Shown here piece after piece: positions 3,519-6,097 of a stretch of DNA of 6,097 bases. Below the pieces are notes generated by a model that saw nothing but the letters and a program-made list of their open reading frames with translations, searched no databases and had not been told where the DNA came from. The stretch's first letter is position 1. Every line of letters begins with the position of its first letter. The position numbers were made by a program, and so were the translations under genes. The stretch spans positions 1 to 6,097 of the forward strand of contig JAPOVO010000113.1 in the NCBI GenBank assembly GCA_026708165.1, given 5' to 3'. Origin of the DNA: Chloroflexota bacterium (GTDB lineage: Bacteria; Chloroflexota; UBA11872; VXNJ01).

Positions 3519-4325
3519 TCAGCTCGTCAGGATCTCGCCGCCGTCGACTCCGATCACGTTTCCAGTTATCCAGTAGGTGCGGTCGTCGCACAGCGCGACC
3601 ATTGCGTTGGCCACGTCTTCCGGTGTGGTCAGCCTGCCGCTCGGATTTGCGCTGCTCGCTCGGGCGAGCAGTTCGTCGCTGCCGCCGATTACGCGGGCCG
3701 CCGGCGTATCGGTGACACCGGCGCGGATGGCGTTTACGGTTATCCCCTTCGGAGCCAGTTCGTACGCAAGGCGCCGGACGTGCGCGTCAAGCGTCGCTTT
3801 CACCGCCGACACGGCCCCATAGTGAGCCCAGATTTTGGTCGAACCCTCGCTGGTCATCGCGAAGACTCGCCCGCCTTCCGCCAGGGTGCCACGCTCGACA
3901 AGGCCTCTAGTCCAGTACACAAGACTGTGGGCCATCACGTCGAACGTCATCTCCATCCCCGCCCGCGAAATGGTCCGGGAATCCCCATCGGCCGTATATG
4001 GCAGCAAGTTTCCGAATGCCAGCGAATGCAACACGGCCCGGATACGCCCCTGCGACTCGTCTCCCAGCTCCTCCATGATCGCGTCGAGCACCGACTCGCG
4101 AGCGTCGTCTTGGGCCGCATTGGAATTGAAGAACCGGGCCGTGCGCCCGTGCGACTCGATGTCGCTCACTACCTTGTCGACTAGGGGAAGGGTTGCCCGC
4201 CGGTCAAGATGAACGCCGAAAATGTTGAGACCGTCCGCCGCGAACGCTCTGCAAGCCGCGGCGCCAAACCCGCTTGAGGCCCCCAGGACGAGCGCCCAGT
4301 CCAGCTTTTTCGGGTTGTCTGACAA
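3519..4325 (-). CDS. SDR family enoyl-ACP reductase-like protein (FabI/FabL type)
   Basis: This 268-residue short-chain dehydrogenase/reductase is probably NAD(P)H dependent. Its nucleotide-binding motif is GASSGFG (15-21). The catalytic pair is Y169 and K176 in YGAVSAVK, spaced Y-x6-K as in enoyl-ACP reductases FabI and FabL, not Y-x3-K as in classical SDRs. SLAFG (101-105) occupies the place of the FabI 'SIAFA' block. AIRAGVTDTPA (199-209) and GNVIGVDGGE (255-264) are the normal C-terminal elements. The last step of fatty acid elongation, reduction of enoyl-ACP, is the likely role, although this SDR group may act on other enoyl or carbonyl substrates. The TTG start at 4325 is supported by a GGAGAG 8 nt upstream. 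It is the first gene of a pair with the DUF3052 gene. Confidence 0.85.
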   Translation of the reverse strand: MSDNPKKLDWALVLGASSGFGAAACRAFAADGLNIFGVHLDRRATLPLVDKVVSDIESHGRTARFFNSNAAQDDARESVLDAIMEELGDESQGRIRAVLHSLAFGNLLPYTADGDSRTISRAGMEMTFDVMAHSLVYWTRGLVERGTLAEGGRVFAMTSEGSTKIWAHYGAVSAVKATLDAHVRRLAYELAPKGITVNAIRAGVTDTPAARVIGGSDELLARASSANPSGRLTTPEDVANAMVALCDDRTYWITGNVIGVDGGEILTS

Positions 4326-4333
4326 GACGGTAT

Positions 4334-4339
4334 CTCTCC
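4334..4339 (-). promoter_or_regulatory. Ribosome binding site fixing the TTG start of the SDR gene
   Basis: GGAGAG on the minus strand is followed by an 8-nt spacer and TTG (4325-4323), an ideal distance. It decides in favour of this unusual start codon; the first in-frame ATG lies too far inside the Rossmann domain to be the start. Confidence 0.7.
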
Positions 4340-4384
4340 ACTAGCTGCGGCCCGCTTAGGCGGGTTCGGTCGACGGACGAAGCG

Positions 4385-4390: not shown

Positions 4391-4562
4391 CAAGAGCCTC
4401 GGCTGCTTGATGAGAAGCAGACCCGGAAGCGAAAAGCTGGACGAACGCTCGAAATGGACTTCACTGCCGTGCTCGGTCGCACGCGCCGGCGCGCTTTTGA
4501 TGCCGGCTGCGTTACGCTTCCACCAATCGGAAGTTCTGTACTGCGGATTTGTGCGAGCTACT

Positions 4563-5444
4563 GTGAGCATAAAGGGCGAACCGGCCCCCTCGACCACATG
4601 GCGATCCTTGAGAAAGCGCTCGGCCATTCGGTTGTCCCTGGGGCTGGTTTTGATGGCGGCCGGCTGGTCGATCATGTGGGGCGTGGACACTTACTTCAAC
4701 GCCTTCGCGTTCTGGTCGCTCTGGACGGGCGCTAGCCTGCTAGCCTGGACGCTTGGAAAAACGGACTATCCGGGTTTCCGGATACATCTACAGCTTGCGT
4801 TGCTGTCAGTTCCTCTGTGGTGGTGGTTTGAGTTGATCAATGAAAGGGTCCAGAACTGGCACTACGTCTTGAGCTTCGACTACGGCCCGGTGCAATACGG
4901 CTTATTGACCTCCCTGGCGTTTTCCACGGTGGTCCCGGCGATATGCGCCGCCAGTTCCATGATCAGGCGAGGTTGTCTCCAGCAAGTGCCGCGCGGGCTG
5001 CGGCGCTCCCGCAATCGCCGCTTGGCGGTGTCTCTCATCGCTGCCGGGGTCGTGCTTCAAGTCGCCGTGGTTTTGTTTCCGACGCAACTCTTTCCGCTGG
5101 TATGGGTCGCGCCGGCGTTGGTCTTCGACGGGCTCGTCACCTCGGCGGGCGGCCGGAGCCTCGTTCGCGACCTCGCGTCAGGGCGGTGGACTGATGTGTT
5201 GGTTATAGCGGCGGGAGGGCTTGTCTGCGGCTTCCTTTGGGAGTTCTGGAATTACTGGTCGATGCCCAAGTGGGAATACCGGATTCCGTACCTCGGCTTT
5301 TGGAAGATTTTCGAGATGCCCGCGGCGGGATACCTGGGCTACGTCCCGTTCGCTTGGTCGGTGGTCCAGTTGGTGCGGTGGCTCGACTGCCTTTCCATCA
5401 GATCGGACGGCGGTTTGATGACTGCCATCTGGAAGCTGAGGTAA
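4563..5444 (+). CDS. Polytopic integral membrane protein of unknown function, with internal repeat
   Basis: I do not recognise a named family. From the GTG at 4563 it would have 293 residues. About eight hydrophobic segments can be seen, roughly at 23-41, 45-64, 74-90, 111-131, 155-175, 177-193, 212-232 and 253-274. Arg-rich loops (for example near 146-153) lie between the halves. It is exceptionally rich in Trp and Tyr. WWWFELINERVQNWHY (86-101) and LWEFWNYWSMPKWEY (225-239 approximately) share an E-x-x-N ... W-x-Y pattern and suggest two related halves. The conserved-looking tail is FEMPAAGYLGYVPF. The start is uncertain: ATGs at 4407 and 4500 and GTGs at 4551 and 4563 share the frame, none with a good Shine-Dalgarno sequence, and the residues before about 4615 look non-conserved. 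It diverges from the SDR gene, and its stop lies 27 nt from the oppositely oriented tRNA gene. Confidence 0.75.
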   Translation: MSIKGEPAPSTTWRSLRKRSAIRLSLGLVLMAAGWSIMWGVDTYFNAFAFWSLWTGASLLAWTLGKTDYPGFRIHLQLALLSVPLWWWFELINERVQNWHYVLSFDYGPVQYGLLTSLAFSTVVPAICAASSMIRRGCLQQVPRGLRRSRNRRLAVSLIAAGVVLQVAVVLFPTQLFPLVWVAPALVFDGLVTSAGGRSLVRDLASGRWTDVLVIAAGGLVCGFLWEFWNYWSMPKWEYRIPYLGFWKIFEMPAAGYLGYVPFAWSVVQLVRWLDCLSIRSDGGLMTAIWKLR

Positions 5445-5471
5445 GGGCAGCGCTTCAGGAGGCCGCGTCGG

Positions 5472-5543
5472 AGCCGGCGGGGGGAGTCGAACCCTCAACC
5501 TGAGCTTTACGAAAGCCCCGCTCTACCATTGAGCTACGCCGGC
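5472..5543 (-). tRNA. tRNA-Thr (anticodon CGT)
   Basis: The minus strand folds as a complete 72-nt cloverleaf. The acceptor stem GCCGGCG/CGCCGGC has seven perfect pairs. Next come TA, D arm GCTC-AATGGTA-GAGC, anticodon stem GGGCT/AGCTC with one G-U pair, loop TTCGTAA giving anticodon CGT, variable region AGGTT, and T arm GAGGG-TTCGACT-CCCCC. The T stem has one A-C mismatch in its second pair. Threonine identity fits anticodon bases G35 and U36 plus G1-C72 and C2-G71. The discriminator is T and CCA is not encoded. It reads codon ACG. Confidence 0.95.
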
Positions 5544-5620: not shown

Positions 5621-5794
5621 CATATTGTAAGCGGCAGGCACGCGAGTAACCGTTGCTGGATCACCTGCTTCCACGAATCGGGCGTGTAGGCGCACCTTTC
5701 TTCGCATCGCCTAAAATCTCACAAGTGTTCAGAGTGCGCGGTCGGGCGAGCCGGGTCGGTTCGACCGGTCCGCCAAAACGGCAAGGAGGCGGCT
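5545..5794. other. Intergenic region between tRNA-Thr and the selenoperoxidase gene
   Basis: About 250 bp with no supported protein gene. Its left part holds the duplicated tRNA leader. On the minus strand a TACAAT (5629-5624) lies about 80 nt before the tRNA and may be its -10 box, without a good -35. On the plus strand TAAAAT (5712-5717) may be the -10 box of the peroxiredoxin gene, again without a convincing -35, followed by a GC-rich stretch and the ribosome binding site. Confidence 0.5.
5783..5789 (+). promoter_or_regulatory. Strong ribosome binding site of the selenoperoxidase gene
   Basis: AAGGAGG, the strongest Shine-Dalgarno sequence in the window, lies 5 nt before TTG (5795-5797) and 14 nt before GTG (5804-5806). 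The spacing favours the TTG. Its presence shows that the TGA-interrupted frame downstream is actively translated and not decayed sequence. Confidence 0.75.
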
Positions 5795-6097
5795 TTGGAA
5801 CCGGTGAACGTTGGTCAGACAGCGCCTGATTTCGAGTTGAAGGACGTTGACGGTAATGAGGTCAGCCTGAGCGACTTTCGCGGCGCGCACGTCGTGGTCG
5901 TCTTCTACAGACTAGATTTCTCTCCCATCTGAGGGGACGAATTGAGCGCGTGGCGTGACCACGCGAGCGAATTGGAATCCAAAGGCGCGAGCCTCATCGG
6001 AATCAGCGTCGACAGTTGGTTTGCGCACAAGGTGTTCGCCGGGCAATTGAATCTGCCCGCTCACTTTCACCTTCTCAGCGACTTTCCCAACCACGCG
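5795..6097 (+). CDS. Selenocysteine peroxiredoxin (AhpE/PrxU-like) with in-frame TGA, C-terminus outside the window
   Basis: A thiol (here selenol) peroxidase expected to reduce hydrogen peroxide and organic hydroperoxides in the cytoplasm. From the TTG at 5795 the window holds 101 codons. The thioredoxin-fold start is typical: VGQTAPDFELKDVDG (6-20), then VSLSDFRG (23-30) and VVVVFYRLDFSPI (33-45). The next codon is TGA (5930-5932), at the place of the peroxidatic cysteine of the PxxxT/SxxC motif. The same frame continues as GDELSAWRDHASELE (47-61), ISVDSWFAHKVF (70-81) and LLSDFPNHA (93-101), which match the AhpE/BCP pattern ('FTGICQGEL', 'LLSDF.PHG'). No cysteine is encoded in the visible part. 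A hairpin suited to be a SECIS follows the TGA. Position 39 is Arg where most peroxiredoxins have Pro. The alternative is a pseudogene with a Cys-to-stop mutation; the correctly placed hairpin, open frame and strong ribosome binding site argue against it. Confidence 0.88.
5930..5932 (+). other. TGA predicted to encode selenocysteine (residue 46)
   Basis: The only in-frame stop between 5795 and the window end. It replaces the peroxidatic cysteine codon of the peroxiredoxin active-site loop (F-S-P-I-Sec-G-D-E-L). Sec at this position is known in PrxU-type peroxiredoxins, where it raises peroxidase activity. Confidence 0.85.
5942..5970 (+). promoter_or_regulatory. Predicted bacterial SECIS element
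   Basis: CGCGTGG (5947-5953) pairs perfectly with CCACGCG (5959-5965) around the loop CGTGA. The loop starts 21 nt after the TGA and has G as its second base. Known bacterial SECIS hairpins carry a G among the first two loop bases and lie roughly 16-37 nt past the UGA, so both criteria are met. Below the stem, G5946/A5966 and A5945/G5967 could form tandem G-A pairs, then G5944-C5968, T5943-G5969 and T5942-A5970 pair. SelB with charged tRNA-Sec would bind here. The hairpin lies wholly within coding sequence. Confidence 0.8.

Follow-up and report, generated by a model that had tools for sequence, protein, structure and literature searches.

A peroxiredoxin frame with one in-frame TGA

A peroxiredoxin-like frame at the end of a short contig from a Chloroflexota bacterium is interrupted by a single TGA, which raises the question of whether this codon ends the protein or is read as selenocysteine (Sec). 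The window, i.e. the whole stretch of 6097 bases that was analysed, is the complete contig C150 of a 2.98 Mb bin that comprises 505 contigs and is 84.5% complete; position 6097 is the end of the contig and not of the gene. The frame starts at TTG 5795 and remains open to 6097 on the forward strand, with the TGA at residue 46 as its sole in-frame stop (Table 1). When the TGA is read through, the translation matches Pfam AhpC-TSA at residues 6–98 (E 5e-25), with the match spanning the TGA, and in alignments this codon coincides with the peroxidatic Cys of AhpE-type relatives. The locus thus has a UGA within the frame at a redox-active site to which the Cys of homologues aligns, as expected of a selenoprotein gene. 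From these sequence comparisons and those below, we hold it very probable (about 0.94) that this is one peroxiredoxin gene whose TGA is decoded as Sec; the product would be an AhpE-like enzyme, likely to reduce peroxides via a selenolate at residue 46.

Table 1. Coordinates of the features discussed in the text (window positions unless another contig or locus is named)
Feature	Location	Strand	Basis
Putative ribosome-binding site AAGGAGG	5783..5789	+	Sequence; also precedes the same TTG in G001
Predicted Sec peroxiredoxin gene, 5' two thirds, TTG start	5795..6097	+	Truncated by contig end
Active-site motif R39-L-D-F-S43-P-I-U46	5909..5932	+	Alignment to homologues
In-frame TGA, predicted Sec codon 46	5930..5932	+	Conserved in G001
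Predicted SECIS hairpin	5938..5974	+	Folding; criteria from PMC13188914
Remainder of the predicted gene	G000:C102, stop codon ending at C102:7210	-	Contig overlap and frame continuation
UxxC peroxiredoxin-like family loci	L080, L082, L084, L086-L096, L098, L100-L103, L106, L107		

An earlier note, made from the sequence alone, had described a continuous peroxiredoxin frame, preceded by AAGGAGG, in which one TGA stands at the peroxidatic Cys, and had expected Cys homologues to align at U46. Its observation is confirmed in all these respects, and its interpretation proved largely right, with the exception of the label PrxU that it gave to the protein (see below).

The rest of the gene is found in contig C102 of the same bin, which overlaps the last 76 bases of the window (75/76 identical) and carries the frame on to ...EALAAIP, followed by a TGA stop. 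The single disagreement between the overlapping ends (window 6022-6097) makes residue 85 either Leu or Trp, and may be due to differences between strains that interrupted the assembly. A second species of the same genus, G001 (record JAPOWW010000004.1), has the gene in one piece, with the same in-frame TGA and the same terminal stop, and the product is 90% identical. The gene is also flanked by the same genes as in the window and C102, one for a membrane protein and another that, from its sequence and without a family search, we take to encode a HAD hydrolase. As the earlier note had anticipated, the frame therefore reaches a normal C-terminus beyond 6097, in both C102 and G001, without further lesion. 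Between the window and G001, identical, synonymous and non-synonymous codons number 36, 3 and 6 before the TGA, and 46, 6 and 3 after it in the window part; the corresponding figures for the C102 part, which shares 25 codons with the window part, are 56, 13 and 7. Because frame, TGA and C-terminus are all kept in G001 at 90% identity, the TGA is not there by chance.

Other genes of the window include a membrane-like protein gene (4407-5444, +) without a Pfam match, which has a 297-aa counterpart in G001, and a tRNA-Thr (CGT) gene (5470-5543, -) upstream of the peroxiredoxin. Two sulfate assimilation genes lie side by side on the reverse strand, for an APS kinase/ATP sulfurylase fusion (2-1177, cut by the contig start) and a CysH-type PAPS reductase (1233-1958).

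Selenocysteine decoding genes

The source genome contains a tRNA-Sec (74.3 bits against a cut-off of 47; identified by ARAGORN as SeC (tca)), selA (546.8 bits, cut-off 267.9) and selB (334.6 bits, cut-off 242.25), so that selA, selB and selC, which a genome with a genuine selenoprotein is expected to carry, are all present. The Sec decoding trait that had been deduced from the TGA is thereby borne out for these genes but not for selD, for which the best match in the incomplete source bin scores 75.3 bits against a cut-off of 125, although G001 does have a selD, itself with a TGA. The selD locus of G001 and its upstream flank have no near-identical match in the source bin, where the downstream region has only matches of 66-75% and the upstream region only short repeat matches. 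The missing selD is most simply explained by an assembly gap, in keeping with a bin that is 84.5% complete, although this is no proof. A segment upstream of selD in G001 (L057:1230-1366) has 30 short matches across the source genome, with 40 of 73 candidates scored, and is likely a dispersed repeat.

Among the source genome and 60 relatives, selB passed the cut-off in 48/61 and selD in 49/61. A TGA is present in 49 of the 50 selD sequences over the cut-off, and the remaining one lacks the N-terminal part. Within the same family, G002 (96% complete) has neither selB nor selD over the cut-off and its close homologue of the peroxiredoxin is a Cys form; likewise, the enzyme of G004 is a Cys form, and this genome has a selD with a TGA and no selB over the cut-off.

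A SECIS-like hairpin downstream of the TGA

A hairpin with a predicted energy of -11.2 kcal/mol follows the TGA, and consists of a 7-bp upper stem (5947-5953/5959-5965), an apical loop CGUGA (5954-5958, 21 nt after the TGA) and a lower stem. It shows all four features given as bacterial SECIS criteria in a 2026 review (PMC13188914). We compared such hairpins in 20 non-redundant TGA genes (window included), thinned from 44, with other codons of the same genes as controls and with 15 non-redundant Cys homologues, thinned from 20 of 27 loci. A strict model, requiring an uninterrupted stem and a G followed by G or U, was satisfied by 11/20 TGA genes, the window among them, by 90/1750 control codons and by 0/15 Cys homologues (Fisher p 1e-9 for TGA against control codons, and 4e-4 for TGA against Cys homologues). 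Likewise, the energy of the best hairpin averaged -6.95 at the 20 TGAs, and -2.29 over 2088 codons used as controls (p 2e-7). A looser model allowing internal loops discriminated poorly (16/20 TGA genes, 819/1750 controls and 5/15 Cys homologues), and folding z-scores of all 44 TGA genes differed only weakly from those of three control stretches (p 0.053, 0.004 and 0.16). The run of 54 identical bases shared by the window and G001 over the hairpin is no more than expected by chance (P 0.40), and covariation is uninformative here because DNA was available for only two close Sec orthologues, which are identical over the hairpin. We propose that SelB, carrying Sec-tRNA, would bind this hairpin and insert Sec at codon 46, while the TGA at the end of the gene would continue to terminate translation.

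Alternative readings of the TGA

If the TGA were instead a true stop, translation might resume at TTG 5942 and yield two separate pieces; alternatively, the gene might be decaying. Four related proteins of 102 aa in the databases (P0003-P0006, known as protein records only) start where such a restart would start. However, neither piece would then contain the nucleophile, the protein sequence on both sides of the TGA is kept in G001 without other lesion, and the Sec machinery and the SECIS-like hairpin are both present; we thus regard a true stop as very unlikely. The 102-aa records rather agree with the suspicion, voiced in the earlier note, that automatic annotation hides the full gene, since these relatives have been recorded as products that start at the place corresponding to such a restart. 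Products of this kind lack the active site, so that counts of peroxide defence and of selenium use in the lineage would come out too low.

An in-frame TGA inside a conserved gene might also be explained by its reassignment to Trp or Gly throughout the genome. Yet TGA is still a stop here, because the peroxiredoxin gene itself and a FabI-like gene of the window both end in TGA (those for CysH, radical SAM and membrane proteins end in TAA). Reassignment is also at odds with the tRNA-Sec, selA and selB of this genome and with the position of the codon in other genes: among at least 47 TGA-bearing matches, 44 were examined, and in 44/44 the TGA occupies a redox position (TxxU, UxxC or UGC). The probability of this explanation is accordingly negligible, and we give as little credit to a Cys codon turned into TGA by a sequencing or assembly error. 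The window is certainly a short contig, from a bin that is fragmented, and disagrees at one base with C102, but the second species has the same TGA in its own record.

Relationship to AhpE and proposed mechanism

By sequence (7e-23) as well as by fold (TM 0.92, 38% identity), the solved structure nearest to the G001 protein is AhpE (Rv2238c), a 1-Cys peroxiredoxin from Mycobacterium tuberculosis; the fold comparison used a predicted model of the G001 protein with Cys in place of Sec (pLDDT 95.5). The AhpC/TSA domain and the fold identify the protein as a peroxiredoxin. Fold, length and catalytic Arg are those of AhpE, and neither protein has a conserved resolving Cys: the only other Cys, in YGCWN, is replaced by Asn or Ala in P0004-P0006 and in P0002, a Cys homologue of 151 aa. 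The AhpE-like context that had been recognized from the sequence is thus supported, and the protein can be placed among the AhpE-like 1-Cys enzymes. It differs from AhpE in the active site, where AhpE has Cys with the motif Pro and Thr (PLAFTGIC), and the window protein Sec, Arg and Ser. The previous assignment to the PrxU type does not hold; PrxU (NF040737) is the best-scoring NCBIfam model, yet the G001 protein reaches 78.8 bits and the window piece 60.1, against a cut-off of 270.

As judged from the family, the selenolate at residue 46 would attack the peroxide and become a selenenic acid, which an outside thiol or redoxin might then reduce in a cycle of the 1-Cys type. The lack of a second conserved Cys is the reason for proposing an outside reductant.

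An arginine in place of the motif proline

Descriptions of Sec peroxiredoxins go back at least to 2005-2006 (PMC1088965, PMC1794560), and 253 marine sequences were counted in 2008 (PMC2398784). The Sec peroxiredoxins of PMC1794560, PMC1088965 and PMC13188914 share with the gene described here the PF00578 domain, a UGA at the peroxidatic position (TxxU) and a SECIS-like hairpin just downstream, but they have PxxxTxxU where the window gene has RxxxSxxU. The window protein (RLDFSPIU) hence departs from the canonical PxxxTxxC/U motif, as does that of G001 (RLDFSPVU), a feature absent from the earlier note. Nevertheless, the fold and the remaining catalytic residues still place the window protein in the peroxiredoxin superfamily.

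In a profile search, 7658 of the 8000 proteins scored were matches, and the best 120 of them were listed as homologues. For the motif count we considered 126 proteins, excluding that of the window, P0003 (a spurious match) and P0004-P0006 (which lack the motif). Among the remaining 121 listed database homologues, the motif position is Pro in 120 and Arg in one, P0002; Ser in place of Thr is the rule among them, and Arg in place of Pro is not. P0002 is 67% identical to the G001 protein and has the same Arg (RLDFSPVC), but with Cys at the catalytic position instead of Sec.

The Arg probably modifies the shape of the pocket or adjusts the reactivity of the selenolate. It might also make the protein, with Sec inserted, an inefficient peroxidase that serves as another selenol oxidoreductase or as a peroxide sensor. 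The near invariance of Pro in the listed homologues (120/121 with the motif, window excluded) speaks for such a role, as does the review PMC13188914, which calls PxxxTxxU highly conserved and crucial for peroxide binding. We nonetheless consider it unlikely, since the protein retains Ser43 and the AhpE fold, together with the catalytic Arg (R118 in the G001 protein), and Pro is also absent from some other Sec and Cys members.

Sec peroxiredoxins are therefore known as a kind, and what is new is a gene of the AhpE-like branch with an unusual motif Arg that it shares with its nearest Cys homologue. In the open-licence literature we found no paper describing this gene, and a word search of PMC12013277 retrieved neither Chloroflex nor peroxiredoxin nor Prx. 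Arg with Cys and Arg with Sec form a natural pair, with Pro and Cys relatives in the same family, which allows one to ask what Sec adds and whether the conserved Pro becomes less necessary in its presence. In our view it is this substitution of the motif Pro that deserves the attention of specialists.

Evolution of the Arg and Sec residues

In a phylogenetic tree of 49 of 70 non-redundant sequences (12 of the remaining Cys and Pro rows were drawn at random), P0002 pairs with the window protein with support of 94/80, below the strong-support mark of the tool. The next relatives, from the same family, have Cys and Pro, and the set of four is supported by 100/99. The simplest history compatible with these sequences would be a change from Pro to Arg, followed by one from Cys to Sec within the family; it rests on one tree, and P0002 may instead have gone back from Sec to Cys.

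The motif Pro is missing from 6/15 non-redundant Sec peroxiredoxins and from 3/55 Cys peroxiredoxins with [TS]xx[CU] (Fisher p 0.002, with relatedness ignored); this comparison left out 29 sequences with UxxC or similar and no TxxU motif, as well as P0001 and P0003-P0006. A tentative idea, which we find rather unlikely, is that selenium can replace the catalytic Pro: the Arg would have arisen while the enzyme still had Cys, as in P0002, and Sec would later have restored or raised its reactivity.

Related sequences in the class and phylum

In 41 genomes of the class, the only match to the DFSPxU pattern beyond the source genome and G001 was in G038, which reads LDFRPG and does not encode the motif. 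The same search in 400 genomes of the phylum retrieved a chance match that is no peroxiredoxin (L118) and three further Sec peroxiredoxins (L121-L123). These three and L055 form another clade of DFSP-type Sec peroxiredoxins in the phylum, where three members have Val at the position of the motif Pro and the fourth has Pro.

The source genome also carries a second Sec peroxiredoxin (YPKSFTGGU) on a different contig (L003; G000:C62, about 3969-4355, -), which is conserved in G001 as L085. Genomes of the same order carry a UxxC peroxiredoxin-like family (FYRAFWUxxC; loci in Table 1), several of them with two or three neighbouring copies.
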